A stretch of DNA of 41,219 bases from Prevotella sp. GTDB taxonomy: Bacteria > Bacteroidota > Bacteroidia > Bacteroidales > Bacteroidaceae. Below the pieces are notes generated by a model that made no database searches, was not told the origin of the DNA, and worked only from the letters and a program-made list of their open reading frames with translations. The stretch covers positions 1 to 41,219 of the forward strand of contig JAFVFY010000052.1 of assembly GCA_017475265.1 (NCBI GenBank). Direction: 5' to 3'. Shown piece by piece: positions 16,502-21,010 of this stretch (position 1 is its first letter; the number at the start of each line of letters is the position of its first letter). The position numbers and the translations under genes were made by a program.

Positions 16502-17743
16502 ATGATGATGACCGTTACAGAACGATTCCTAAATTACACGACCTTCGACACACAGTCGTCGGAGGAGAGTCAGAGCATACCCAGCACGCCTGGGCAAATG
16601 GTCTTCGCCCAATATCTAGCGGAAGAACTGAAACGCGAAGGGCTTCACGACGTGGTGCTCGACGATAAGGGCTACGTCTATGCCACGCTGCCCGAGAATA
16701 TCCCCATACACAAGGAGCCATGGGGCATTGAGGCCGTTCCCACGATAGGCTTCATCGCCCACTACGACACCAGCCCCGACTGTTCGGGCAAAGGCGTAAA
16801 ACCGCGCATCGTGGAGCACTATGACGGAGGCGACATCACGCTCTCGGAGGGCATCGTCCTCTCGCCTTCGGTCTTTCCTGAGATGCTGTCACACAAGGGT
16901 GAAGACCTTGTCGTCACCGATGGCCACACCCTTCTTGGGGCAGACGACAAGGCTGGTATCGCAGAGATTGTACAGGCTATGACCTGGTTGCGCGACCACC
17001 CCGAAGTGAAGCACGGACGAGTGCGCATCGCCTTCACGCCCGATGAGGAGATTGGCCGTGGAGCCGACCATTTCGATGTGAAGGGTTTCGACTGCCAATG
17101 GGCATACACGATGGACGGCGGCGATGTGGGCGAGCTGGAATATGAGAACTTCAACGCTGCCTCGGCGAAGGTTACGTTTAGGGGCGTTAGTGTGCATTCC
17201 GGTTATGCGAAGGGGAAGATGGTGAACGCCTCCCTGCTGGCTATGGAGTTCGCCATGCAGCTGCCTGTCCATGAGCGTCCGGAGCATACGGAGGGGTATG
17301 AGGGATTCTTCCATGTTATGGGCATCAATGGCCACGTCGGCGAGGCCCAGTTGTCGCTCATCATCCGCGACCACGACTATGAAAGTTTCGACAAGCGGAA
17401 GAAACTCGTAACCGATATTGCCGCAAAGATGAACCGTAAATACGGCGAAGGAACCGTTTGTGTGGAGATGCACGACCAGTATTATAATATGAAGGAACTG
17501 GTCATCCACGAGGAACATATCGTAGACCTGGCTCTGGAAGCCATGCTTCGTGCTGGTGTGGAGCCAAAAGTGCAACCCATCCGTGGCGGTACTGACGGCG
17601 CACAACTCTCGTTCAAGGGACTGCCCTGCCCGAACATCTTCGCCGGAGGACTCAATTTCCACGGCCCTTACGAGTTTATTCCCGTGCAGTCGATGGAAAA
17701 GGCTGTAAGGGTTATCATTGGAATCTGTGAGTTACTTGCGTAG
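16502..17743 (+). CDS. pepT: Peptidase T (tripeptide aminopeptidase)
   Basis: The 413-residue cytoplasmic M20 metallopeptidase removes N-terminal residues from tripeptides and is close in length to E. coli PepT (408). Di-zinc motifs: IAHYDTSPD (His87, Asp89), LLGADDKAG (144-152, bridging Asp148), FTPDEEIG (catalytic Glu182 with Glu183) and YTMDGG. The start follows the methyltransferase stop immediately; three consecutive ATG codons are possible. Its last 12 bases overlap the end of the convergent beta-helix gene. Confidence 0.95.
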
Positions 17744-20700
17744 CCAGAAAATACGATTGGAACTAGTGTCGTCGAGGGTGAACGTACCTGGCAAGAGTTT
17801 GCTCTTTTCCTTTAAGGTGATTGCTCCAGTCGAGGCGTTCACCTCGTAGATAGTGTATTTCCCTTCTTCTATCTTCAGCGAGACCTCTGATGCCTTGGTA
17901 TAAACGAGGTAGCCCATACTGGGATTGCCAAGTGCCACACAACCTTCTCCGTCCAAAGGCCGCATCTTTGCAATGTCGGCAAGAAGTTTATTGGTTATTG
18001 GTTCCCGTTTATTGGTTATTGGTTCCCGTTTATTGTATAGAGGTACGTTCGCCATCGAGCCACCTGCCATGAGGATAGCCCAGCCGTAGTTGGGGTATTG
18101 CTGGGCAAAGAACGTAACGGCCTTGTCGGGATAGCGGTCGCGCATCTCTCGTACGGCATGGTAAGCCTCGTCAAAGCCCGTCTTGCCCACCTTCATCTTG
18201 CGCATCCATTGGCGCGGAGCCAGGTTCTTTCCACCTTCGGGAGCCCATAGGCCTTCCGTGTTATAGTGCCAATAGCGGATGTCGATGATGTCCACCACCT
18301 TGTTAAGTACGGGGTCGTTGAGCAGACTGTCCTGCACGTCGCGGGTACAGCTCAGGGCGATGAGGGGATGTCGGCCTGTCTCCTTCTCCCACTCAGCGAT
18401 GGTCTCCAACCAGAAGCGGGTAAAATGGAGCGGGCCGGTGTACTCCGCGCTGATAAGGTGCACCACGTTAGGCTGGTCCTTCAGTTGGTCAAGGCACATG
18501 CGGATGTACTGGTGGTGCAAGGGTCTCAACGTCGGATTGGTCTCGTCGTAGAACTGCTCAGCCATGAAAACACGCTTGTCGCCAGCGAAGGGAACGGGCT
18601 CGGGGAAAGGGGAGTATTCGGGAATGAAAGGGGAGTGAAGGGGGAGTGAAGGGGGAGTGAAAGTGACGTTACTTTTGGTGTTGATGGTTGTATCGTCCCT
18701 TTCACTCCTGTTCACTCCCTTATAATTAATATTGTTCACCGGTCTCCACGGGCAGTCTACCCAGTGGGCACCTGCCTCGAGGATATTGTGCTGGAAGTAG
18801 TGGTGGTTGAAAAGCATGATGCCCTCCTCGGCGGCCTTGTCGGCAAACTCTCGCAGCCGGCTCCAGTACCATTCATTGGGCTTTGTGAGGTCATAGCGTG
18901 AAAGGCCGTCCCATGCAGTCCCCTGTCCGCTGCGGGCAAAAGGCTGCTCGTAGAAGGGTGCCCACACGTCGCCGTCGGCACGCCGCACACGCTCATGGTC
19001 GGTGCGCCGCAAGTCATACCACAGGCCGTAGTGGTGGTCAAGTGCGCCATAGCCGTTCTGTTTCAGAAAGCTTACCACCGAGTCGATGCGGTCTGTCCAG
19101 CCCGTGCCCTCACGACCAGGAACAAAGCGGGTTATCGCTGGCTTGGCTTCCCTTTGGCAGAAGTTGTCTTTCACCCGGCCGCTCCACCAGGGGATGGAGT
19201 AGAGAGAGCCAATGAGGGGAACATGTTCTATGGGAGTGAAAGGGGAGTGAAGGGGGAGTGAGGGGGGAGTGAAAGTGACGTTACCTTTGCTGTTGATGGA
19301 AGTATCGTCGTTCACTCCCTCTTCCTTAATAATGTGGTCTATCCATTCCTCCATCGTCAGCCTTGGCTCGGTAAGCGACTCCTGTGCCAGCTCCATAGCC
19401 TGCTCTACGGTGGGCGAGCTGGTGGCGTTGGTGTTTCGGGGCAGAATGTAACCTCTCACCTTCCACTTCTCACCTCTCGCCTCCATTCTCTTCTCCAACT
19501 GCTCATAGAACAGCGACCGTGGCTGCACGTGGTCGTTACTGCTCGTCCAGTTGCCGTTGCCCGTGAGCGTTCCCCAACAACCGTGGGCACTCGAGCGGTT
19601 GAGCGTGCCGGGTGAATAACATTCGATCGTCGAGGCGGTACATTGCCAGAACATTGAGTTTGCCGTGTTCCAGCCTGTGCCAAACTGGAACTGTTCCAAG
19701 TTGGCAAAGCGCAGGTCGTTGCCATCGATGTTCACAATGTCGAAGAGCAGTCCTGGTGCCCATGAACCGATGCTACCGCTAAAGCCAAGAGACTCCTCGC
19801 CCTCGCATTGCACGAAGGCGTTAGGCCCTGCGGCACAGAATCCTGCAGCGAAGTCATGGATGCCCTGCCGCGAGATACACCGTTGGAAGAGTGTCTGCTG
19901 ACCACGGGTGAGGAATACCTGACGTCGCCAGCCGCCAATCTCAGAAACAGGCTCCTGGGCGATACAGTCCTCCACGGTGATGCGGCTCGTCTGCCGTTGC
20001 AGGTTCACCGCCGAACCAGCAAAATGACGAAAGTTGATGCGTCTCACCCAGCAGTCACGTACATTGTTTATATATATTGCATCCCAGCAATGGTCCTCGT
20101 CCTTCGGGTTCCAATCGTTGACTGCACTCTCCAGCGTGAGGTTCTCTACGCCGCACTCCGTAATCTCTCCCTCATGCTCTCCGCGGACAATATACGCCCC
20201 GCCGAACTCTTTGGTAATGGCTGTGGTGATAGGAGCGTCAAGAAAGATGGTGTCACCCCGAACATCAATGATAGTCCTGTCCCATCGAAGCTCTATGTCT
20301 GTTGGCTTCCATCCCGTATAGTCCAGCCCTCCTCCGAAGTCCTCCATGCCTAGGCTCTCTATCCACTCCCACGTACAGGGACGGACGATGGTTATCCGAG
20401 GTGAGATTTGAGATTTGAGGTTTGAGATTTGAGATTTGAGATTTGAGGTTTGAGAATATCGTATTGGGATGGCTGTGCTGCCAGCGGTAATCAAGTCAGC
20501 AGTAATAAACAGCGTGTCCTGAACGTCAAAGGTAACGCCCCTTTCACTCCCGGTCACTCCCCTTTCACTCCTTTTCACTCCCTTTGAAAGTCCTCCCTTT
20601 GAAGGCTCTCCCTCAATATAGAGAAGTGCCCCTCTGTCTACGCCATGCTTCACCAATCGTGTCTTATCGCGCCCCATACCACGGAGCACCACGCCGAAGG

Positions 20701-21010
20701 TTTCTATGCGTAGTGATTTGTCCAATCGGAACGTCCCTTCTCCAAGAAGTACTGCCCCACGATGTCCATTGCTACCAGCCTTCAGTCCCGAAACATAGTC
20801 TATGGCCTGTTGTATGAGCGAGGAGCAGTCTCCCTCATGCCACTCCACGTATGCTGCCACCTCCACATCGGGCACCACCTGCTCCGAGGCGTGATAACCG
20901 CAGGTGCTGTAGTCCATTGGTATGAAGAGCGTAGGCTTCGGCTTCTTTGGAGCGGCAACAGAACTAACGACAAAAATAATAGAAGTTAAGAAAAGTAATA
21001 TACTTCTCAT
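17732..21010 (-). CDS. Large secreted beta-helix protein with C-terminal DUF6298-like region, carrying many in-frame repeats
   Basis: The 1092-residue protein has a signal peptide (ending VSSVAA, about residue 20). An N-terminal right-handed parallel beta-helix resembling pectate-lyase-superfamily proteins follows (about 40-530; [45 protein letters not shown]). The second half (about 600-1000) is barrel-like ([28 protein letters not shown]) and reminds me of Bacteroidetes DUF6298 proteins; the name is tentative. A role on pectin or other plant polysaccharide is inferred, with no catalytic residue assigned. The frame is interrupted by at least five repeat blocks (about residues 140-162, 186-203, 563-593, 763-797, 992-1008) yet stays open. 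It is the last gene of the fkp-nhaC-GSCFA run, 24 bp after GSCFA. Confidence 0.8.
17986..18035 (-). repeat. 21-bp tandem (3 x heptamer) inside the beta-helix gene
   Basis: 2.4 copies of GTTTATT-GGTTATT-GGTTCCC encode NKREPIT twice on the minus strand. An 18-bp core is identical to 12857-12874 between other genes. Confidence 0.75.
18620..18722 (-). repeat. ~100-bp GGAGTGAA hairpin element, copy A, in coding sequence
   Basis: A run of GGGAGTGAA-type units, a middle with AAGTGACGTTAC, and a closing TTCACTCC run give an imperfect inverted repeat. It is nearly identical to copy B (19230-19322). It encodes a [20 protein letters not shown] peptide. Confidence 0.8.
19230..19322 (-). repeat. ~95-bp GGAGTGAA hairpin element, copy B, in coding sequence
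   Basis: Same element as 18620-18722, including the AAGTGACGTTAC core, encoding [16 protein letters not shown]. It is read in the same frame as copy A. A related shorter run of CTTTCACTCC units lies at 20539-20585 and encodes [16 protein letters not shown]. Confidence 0.8.
20403..20454 (-). repeat. Heptanucleotide array (AAATCTC)n inside the beta-helix gene
   Basis: About 7.4 heptads, GAGATTT on the plus strand, some GAGGTTT. Read on the coding strand it gives the 7-residue cycle SNLKSQI. Because 7 and 3 are coprime, every frame of this strand reads the same stop-free cycle. Confidence 0.85.

Follow-up and report, generated by a model that had tools for sequence, protein, structure and literature searches.

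How does a single bacterial gene come to carry several blocks of repeated DNA while its reading frame stays open? The question is raised by a stretch of 41,219 nucleotides (contig JAFVFY010000052.1 of assembly GCA_017475265.1, hereafter the window) from a Prevotella genome, in which an open reading frame (ORF) of the DUF6298 family hosts repeats made of short tandem units. Families of such repeats probably spread through the whole genome without being aimed at genes, and selection would then have left the copies that keep the frame open, the same loops being filled independently in related species; the probability of this account, drawn from sequence comparison, is put at about 0.8. It builds on what the comparisons have shown: an excess of length over orthologues, repeats found genome-wide, many host ORFs, depletion of arrays within ORFs, a pattern of orientation and phase, and reuse of the same loops.

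Repeat blocks of the DUF6298 gene and of its orthologues

The N-terminal end of the 1092-aa DUF6298 protein resembles, by eye, a signal peptide. At least five in-frame blocks derived from repeats reside in the ORF, in loops denoted A to E, and have been sorted into three families: an 11-bp palindromic element, present three times, an array of TTGAGAT heptamers, and an array of 21-bp (3 x 7) units. The features of the gene are listed by window position.

17732..21010, minus strand: host ORF, 1092 aa, open frame in the ORF list; DUF6298 (PF19815), Pfam E=5.6e-212
17986..18035, minus strand: loop E, 21-bp (3 x heptamer) array GTTTATTGGTTATTGGTTCCC; 2.4 copies at 100% match in the tandem-repeat scan
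18620-18722: loop D, whole block, 11-bp unit GGGAGTGAARG plus inverted arm
18620..18661, minus strand: loop D, first arm, four units of the 11-bp element in stop-free orientation on the coding strand
18662..18700, no strand assigned: loop D, inner motifs GTGACGTTAC / GTATCGTCC plus variable spacer
18701..18719, minus strand: loop D, second arm, just two units at 10-bp spacing, so that the GGGAGTGA orientation stays open
19230-19322: loop C, whole block, 11-bp unit GGGAGTGAARG plus inverted arm
19232..19273, minus strand: loop C, four-unit arm in stop-free orientation
19274..19319, minus strand: loop C, inner motif, spacer related to that of loop D, and one-unit second arm
19451..19490, minus strand: possible sixth block, degenerate AGGTGAGA-type array; Tandem Repeats Finder score 55
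20402..20454, minus strand: loop B, TTGAGAT heptamer array, 7-bp unit, 7.7 copies
20526..20585, minus strand: loop A, lone four-unit arm (11-bp array 20539-20585, unit on the other strand) in stop-bearing orientation, the coding strand reading GGGAGTGA

Sequence, ORF list and repeat scan bear out an earlier reading of this DNA (the original prediction), which had placed five blocks inside an open frame of 1092 codons. It had also assigned the blocks to several unrelated families. More than one family is indeed present, but the number is three, because the blocks at 18620, 19230 and 20539 have the 11-bp unit in common. The blocks at 18620 (loop D) and 19232 (loop C) are 92% identical across 78 bp, lie about 600 bp apart and have related spacers. 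In loop A the frame is open through unit spacings of 10, 11 and 10 bp despite the stop-bearing orientation. A structure model of the protein, built from 13 sequences, features blocks A and E as low-confidence dips between better segments, and blocks C and D inside long uncertain stretches; with a mean predicted local distance difference test score (pLDDT) of 55.8 it is too poor to judge loop exposure, and was left out of the evidence.

Loop lengths were compared with those of orthologues, the best 80 of 124 found, which come from species-representative genomes, mostly metagenome-assembled genomes (MAGs) of ruminant Prevotella. Lengths were taken between anchors, and orthologues without an anchor were omitted (n=79, 77, 80, 80 and 77 for loops A to E). 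In loop D, exactly 4 residues separate NNIN from PEP in 63/80 orthologues, compared with 40 in the window. Loop A measures 10 residues in 39/79 orthologues (33 in the window), loop B 11 residues in 42/77 (22 in the window), and the commonest lengths of loop E are 8 (34/77) and 15 (25/77), compared with 21. Loop C corresponds to a variable linker of 38–77 residues (n=80). Two adjacent 11-bp units were found, by the pattern used, in 0/80 orthologous loci. The closest relative (L255, 82% identity) has no insertion at all in loop D; its loop E carries CAATAAA heptamers and is 7 residues shorter than that of the window, and its loop A carries GGTCAAT-type heptamers (heptamers identified by eye, and under the array threshold, in both). 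At the possible sixth block several, not all, aligned orthologues are shorter, and L033 is longer; the alignment used there ignores L032, which is in the wrong frame and the genome of which is represented by L171 in the later set. Orthologue lengths and genome-wide copies support the view, put forward originally, that the blocks arose when dispersed repeat DNA entered a conserved gene. The contrary outcome, orthologues with identical peptides at identical positions, was looked for and found in none of the 80.

Repeats of families other than those of the window reside in the same loops in other species. The 80 orthologous coding sequences (CDS) hold 17 tandem arrays, with periods of 6, 7, 9, 14, 15, 18 and 24. 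Twelve overlap the five window loops, which account for 9.7% of residues; the binomial test, run against 11.7%, gives p=2e-8. Seven of the twelve are at the variable loop C; since orthologues are related, these counts are inflated and the p values are only guides. Palindromes with tandem arms were identified at loop C, made of ACCTACCGA 9-mers in L215 and L225 and of AAGAGGTGAG-type heptamers in L220, L233 and L281, and at loop D, made of AACTCTC/GAGAGTT heptamers in L215. Loop D of L213 features a shorter AACTCTC run, seen by eye and below the array threshold. Inverted repeats in the orthologue set number 34, 28 of which overlap the loops; their mutual overlap is heavy, and by reading they come down to 14 distinct places, 8 in loops.

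A palindrome family of the type CCCCTCC..GGAGGGG, coding for PSL.GRGG..GG-like peptides, was noticed by eye in loops C and D of L219 and in loop C of L255. It is apparently a separate ORF-invading family.

Dispersed repeats and their fate within reading frames

Repeat families of this genome are built from units of 7, 11 and, in some, 9 bp. In 522 kb of own-genome DNA, 37 arrays of period 7 and 51 of period 11 were found, compared with none of periods 4, 5, 6, 8, 12 and 13, and none of any period in a Markov control; as these stretches, the window apart, were picked around 11-bp matches, the period-11 figure is inflated, and weight is given solely to the contrast with the other periods and with the control. 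With up to 1 mismatch allowed, the pair of 11-bp units gives 195 matches across the 4.75-Mb genome, its reversed control 0, and the inner motif of the element 94 matches compared with 3 for the reversed control. The 11-bp element is thus dispersed and multi-copy, and is found both within and between genes. Arms of at least three units lie wholly within ORFs in 31/87 cases (522 kb, mostly picked around matches).

The exact two-unit 11-bp pattern marks 15/299 genomes of the genus, the own genome included, and is absent from 197 further genomes of the order, just 2 of which belong to the same family. The heptamer pattern TCAAAYC is found in 11/80 genus genomes, with 117 matches in the own genome; read backwards it has matches in 12/80 genus genomes, none of them the own, and these are taken for other heptamer arrays. 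One carrier of the 11-bp pattern (G096) has no TCAAAYC match, so families come and go independently. Carriage by viruses or plasmids was considered and rejected, as viral contigs gave no exact matches to a 24-base pattern of the element, and plasmids no match for one complete copy. That the repeats are an artefact of assembly or binning of a draft genome is hardly credible. The genome is in 135 contigs, the named relatives are mostly MAGs and short repeats are prone to misassembly, but frames are kept in many ORFs, the 11-bp pattern recurs in 14 other genomes of the genus, and the orthologues, which come from different assemblies, contain arrays of their own (17 in 80 CDS).

The position of arrays relative to ORFs has been analyzed in 201 kb, made up of the window and eight 20-kb stretches on element-carrying contigs, picked away from listed matches. 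There are 29 arrays in this sample, 17 of them inside ORFs, hosted by 14/135 ORFs of at least 100 aa; the window contributes 8 arrays to the total and 5 to those inside ORFs. Of the bases, 92.2% lie in ORFs, within which arrays show a depletion of about 8-fold (p=7e-7), an array crossing an ORF edge being counted as outside. By period, the 17 in-ORF arrays include 6 of period 7, 2 of period 11, 1 of period 14, 1 of period 22, and 7 of periods divisible by three (9, 12, 21 in three arrays, 24, 30). Of the heptamer arrays inside ORFs that reach 28 bp or more, 21/22 would have no open frame if reversed, in match-chosen as in other stretches. For the 11-bp element, four GGGAGTGAARG units at 11-bp spacing bring TGA into all three frames, and therefore only the TTCACTCCC orientation is freely coding. 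Phase was tested on the 56 arms of exactly four units. None of the 10 stop-bearing arms in ORFs measures 42 bp (they are 40, 41 or 44 bp long), whereas lengths that differ from 42 bp are found in 2/27 arms not inside ORFs (Fisher p=2e-7) and 2/19 stop-free ORF arms (p=3e-6). The test is partly built in, because stops in three frames would bar an arm from any ORF; its informative part is that arms of other lengths are rare outside the stop-bearing ORF class.

A mechanism aimed at coding DNA, one of the possibilities raised originally, is at odds with 17 of 29 arrays lying in ORFs that cover so large a share of the sample, and the orientation and phase patterns look like survivorship. Selection for frame-compatible insertion, the other possibility raised, holds as purifying selection on the outcome and not as targeting of coding DNA. 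Nor is the DUF6298 gene a special host, as had been implied. Twelve of the 14 host ORFs lie outside the window, and hosts include ORFs matching essential-type enzymes.

Host names, beyond Pfam labels, were assigned by the analyst. An ORF matching MutS, with the 11-bp element in frame (L100:5278-7995), has about 27 extra residues relative to 7ou2, and in one matching MutS2 (L104:3794-6505) both arms are present in frame. In an ORF matching Der/EngA the element falls opposite a 16-residue gap in 2hjg, just ahead of the strand leading to NKxD. Both arms are found in each of the ORFs matching an ABC-F ATPase and a radical-SAM protein, and further host ORFs match a GH2 beta-galactosidase and LpxB, among others. 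Mismatch repair, if weakened by the MutS and MutS2 insertions, could itself favour repeat growth. An enzyme resembling N-acetylglucosamine (GlcNAc)/N-acetylmuramic acid (MurNAc) kinases measures 318 aa (homologues 283–293 aa) and hosts the 11-bp element twice. Both blocks are opposite gaps in most rows of an alignment with 27 orthologues; the best structural match, 1zbs, aligned weakly over part of the second block. Four arrays were found among the 27 orthologues, three of them (L190, L192 and L201, judged from the alignment) at or across the two loops occupied in the window genome, and those of L192 and L201 may be one event.

As originally noted, the same families are found between genes in the window: 12857-12872 matches the unit at 17986 exactly, and 28771-28811 is a related array, made of TTGAGAG and not of TTGAGAT. 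The elements in question, and a further in-frame array, are the following.

12838..12885, plus strand: intergenic TTATTGG heptamer copy between an ORF ending at 12836 and an ORF starting at 12889, with the exact match to the 17986 unit at 12857-12872
28767..28818, plus strand: heptamer array (AGAGTTG) filling the intergenic gap between ORFs 28208-28768 and 28822-29541, with the TTGAGAG array at 28771-28811
29662..29697, plus strand: in-frame AACTCTC heptamer array inside ORF 29579-30115 (DUF3256)

Other repeats were noticed along the window. A 22-bp tandem unit with the palindrome ATTCCCACCGTGGGAAT lies between genes at 15555-15642, as well as inside an ORF at L297:3877-3937, and represents a further repeat family; a 22-bp intergenic tandem array (TGCCACTTAGGCGTGCTAAGTA) is at 2977-3082. 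Repeat-like blocks reside inside a fucose-pyrophosphorylase/GHMP kinase ORF (24528-24562) and a TonB-plug receptor ORF (11148-11180).

The course of events may be pictured as follows. In the 11-bp family, as in some families of relatives, the complete form would be a palindrome with small tandem arrays as arms and a variable spacer. Such repeats would be inserted or copied throughout the genome, genes not being their target, and most genic insertions would be removed by selection. The surviving genic copies would be those in stop-free orientation, or those in which units were lost or shifted to keep the frame open, and would sit at places able to accommodate added residues. Several tolerant loops are present in the DUF6298 gene, so that five or more insertions may have accumulated in it, and in related species the same loops would have been independently filled by other families. 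The loops are probably exposed, the host proteins presumably functional, and the peptides presumably free of any selected function.

Some observations weigh against this account, besides the built-in part of the phase test and the relatedness of the orthologues. At loops A, B, D and E a small number of orthologues equal or exceed the window in length, with a different sequence; the longer ones are one at loop A (39 residues), one at B (48), two at D (51, 55) and two at E (23, 24). The array in loop B replaces residues in part; at loop C, as the linker is variable, insertion and replacement are indistinguishable. In glutamine synthetase III (GSIII) a heptamer array lies in a loop with no net gain in length relative to 3o6x, which makes it a weaker case. 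Five of the 17 orthologue arrays are outside the five loops. Lastly, some insertions may have a selected function. Under the corresponding alternative, rated quite unlikely, in-frame insertions were selected for a benefit that the extra peptides bring to the proteins, an idea put forward for Borg tandem repeats. That the same loops are occupied repeatedly among several species, and that loop E differs by 7 residues between close relatives, fits such a history; the peptides at a given loop are unrelated and come from different families, hosts are functionally diverse and arrays are depleted in ORFs, all of which make it an improbable one.

Structure and spread of the 11-bp element

The usual complete form of the element is made by four 11-bp units, GGGACGWTACTTTTKG, a spacer with hardly any conserved positions, and then the mirror image. 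Flanks are AT-rich. Three complete copies, located beyond ORFs or at an ORF edge, fold into hairpins at -73 to -97 kcal/mol (z scores -10.8, -11.5 and -12.6); the coding copy at loop D folds at -37.8 (z -7.8), and coding copies are often half elements. Spacer lengths cluster at 14–20 and 26–33. The value for an 11-bp period is reached by 1/5000 smoothed resamples; as periods from 10.5 to 13 score alike (0.51–0.56), helical phasing of spacers is not claimed. Outside ORFs, 11-bp arrays reach 7–14 units (L118:958-3675, L128:2944-3134, L115:4218-4430) and include a GGGAGTTAAAG variant, noticed among coding copies in L106:17388. An Rfam scan of the window at gathering scores found only the 5S rRNA (RF00001) at 40988-41100, near the window end.

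A role as bidirectional terminator was rejected. The 26 complete pairs include 18 between tandem genes, 2 between convergent and 2 between divergent ones, and 4 inside ORFs; neighbouring genes in the 201-kb sample are tandem in 94 cases, convergent in 15 and divergent in 17, and an excess of convergent positions is absent.

Several features recall classical miniature inverted-repeat transposable elements (MITEs), in which a DDE transposase acts in trans on the arms as terminal inverted repeats of a non-autonomous element: the arms are inverted and usually made of four units, the inner motif is conserved, copies are dispersed, and the hairpin of the three complete copies is very stable. Transposition of this kind predicts target duplications, shared spacers and a cognate transposase. 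Flanking direct repeats are not in excess in the 26 pairs (mean best 2.9, compared with 2.6 in shuffled sequences; 305/2000 shuffles reach the observed value). Shared spacers were noticed in two cases only, loops C and D of the DUF6298 gene and a pair of copies in L099 separated by about 2.2 kb. Similarity between arms is no higher within an element than between elements (0.745 within and 0.767 between, 25 elements, ungapped). No transposase was noticed on reading the ORF lists of three long-array loci, where no family search was made, DDE families being left unsearched. A MITE is, on these grounds, unlikely.

A palindrome moved without target duplication would also suit the IS200-type Y1 transposases of the kind associated with repetitive extragenic palindromes (REPs), the REP-associated tyrosine transposases (RAYTs), acting here on the hairpin of a REP-like element, and the own genome has 3 Y1_Tnp matches. 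However, Y1_Tnp is found in 12/15 genomes with the 11-bp pattern and in 17/25 without it. Twelve Y1 loci were fetched of 57 listed; the one fetched from the own genome (L160, 1 of 3) lacks an exact GGGAGTGAA in the surrounding 1.5 kb or so, and a single unit is present at L156 alone. With no association with the 11-bp pattern, and no RAYT gene flanked by the repeat among the 12 loci, a RAYT/Y1 transposase was rejected as the mover, and is rated very unlikely.

Since arms within an element are no more alike than arms across elements and spacers are rarely common, the arm looks like the unit that is spread or homogenised. For the same reasons the leading guess, a tentative one falling short of even odds, is that arms may spread by repair- or replication-associated template copying rather than by cut-and-paste transposition. 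An origin of the 11-bp arms by fold-back was rejected on the similarity of arm pairs, although some palindromes in relatives (L215, L225, L281; by eye) mirror their unit variants. A wider and more doubtful proposal is that tandem-armed palindromes might form a general class of self-spreading DNA in Prevotella, the arms (7-, 9- or 11-bp) being independent modules copied during repair or replication and without a transposase, with lineage-specific units. They would then be a standing source of in-frame loop extensions, through which unrelated repeats convergently remodel identical loops of given enzymes from species to species.

Comparison with known repeats

The main known cases of selfish palindromes invading genes come from the small genomes of Rickettsia and Wolbachia; the Wolbachia elements are counterparts to the Rickettsia palindromic elements (RPEs). 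The genome analyzed here measures 4.75 Mb, about one in ten ORFs of the 201-kb sample is a host, and essential-type enzymes are found among the hosts. In the available text on RPEs (PMC2229807), these are in-frame insertions in conserved genes, and a guanylate kinase host is translated and active, with changed substrate affinity. The original prediction had one type dominating in Rickettsia. This was not upheld, as the accessible part of a review reports ten RPE families in R. conorii, three of which enter ORFs (PMC10969869). RPEs measure 105–146 bp, or about 150 bp, and feature a conserved peptide, as far as the same portions of the two sources go (PMC2229807, PMC10969869). Within these descriptions, the repeats under study resemble RPEs in being short dispersed palindromes, in frame in conserved genes as well as intergenic, with several families per genome. 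In contrast to RPEs as described, their arms are tandem arrays of 11-bp (elsewhere 7- or 9-bp) units, the spacer is variable, single arms are frequent, and stop-bearing coding copies of the 11-bp element depend on shifted unit spacing.

Heptamer short tandem repeats go under the name STRR. The dispersed arrays of 7-bp units of this genome answer to that type; this holds for the heptamers, not for the 11-bp family. Direct repeats of the heptamer TAACTGA have been identified in Beggiatoaceae, cyanobacteria and some Bacteroidetes, and reside in genes in stop-free orientation, according to the available sections of the report (PMC4679880). Period-7 arrays between genes and in ORFs, and the same orientation rule, are common to both, as far as those sections extend. 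In contrast, many heptamer sequences coexist here, some inside conserved enzymes, and the TAACTGA repeats are, in the same sections, mostly near protein ends or in hypothetical proteins (PMC4679880).

Borg repeats, in the accessible portion of their description, are found in genes and intergenic DNA, sometimes several per ORF; unit lengths in ORFs are divisible by three and the sequences virtually all unique per genome (PMC9879509). Tandem repeats in genes and between them, several in one ORF, are a feature in common with that description. Unlike Borg repeats, the 7- and 11-bp units are common to the whole genome, and 10/17 in-ORF periods are not divisible by three. Among Bacteroidales, BrickBuilt of Porphyromonas gingivalis is reported, in the text available, as a minisatellite with inverted ends, holding 23-bp units in variable copy number between leader and tail, and always intergenic (PMC4596501). 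In the repeats described here the tandem units themselves form the inverted arms, and many copies are in ORFs. PINSR, a lineage-specific repeat of Prevotella intermedia/nigrescens, lacks terminal inverted repeats and is probably non-coding, by the part of its description available (PMC4755523). It shares with the present repeats the restriction to a Prevotella lineage, and is set apart by that partial description. A literature search, which largely did not cover subscription journals, found no paper on ORF-invading repeats in Prevotella.

The recurrent filling of loops by unrelated repeats amounts to a natural experiment in insertion tolerance on DUF6298 and the sugar kinase, and a genus with hundreds of sequenced species offers a means to test how short ORF-compatible repeats spread. 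Given the likeness of the element to RPEs and its different architecture, the DUF6298 gene would be one instance of a wider RPE-like process. What is new relative to RPEs is the tandem-armed architecture, the phase-shifted coding arms and the reuse of loops.

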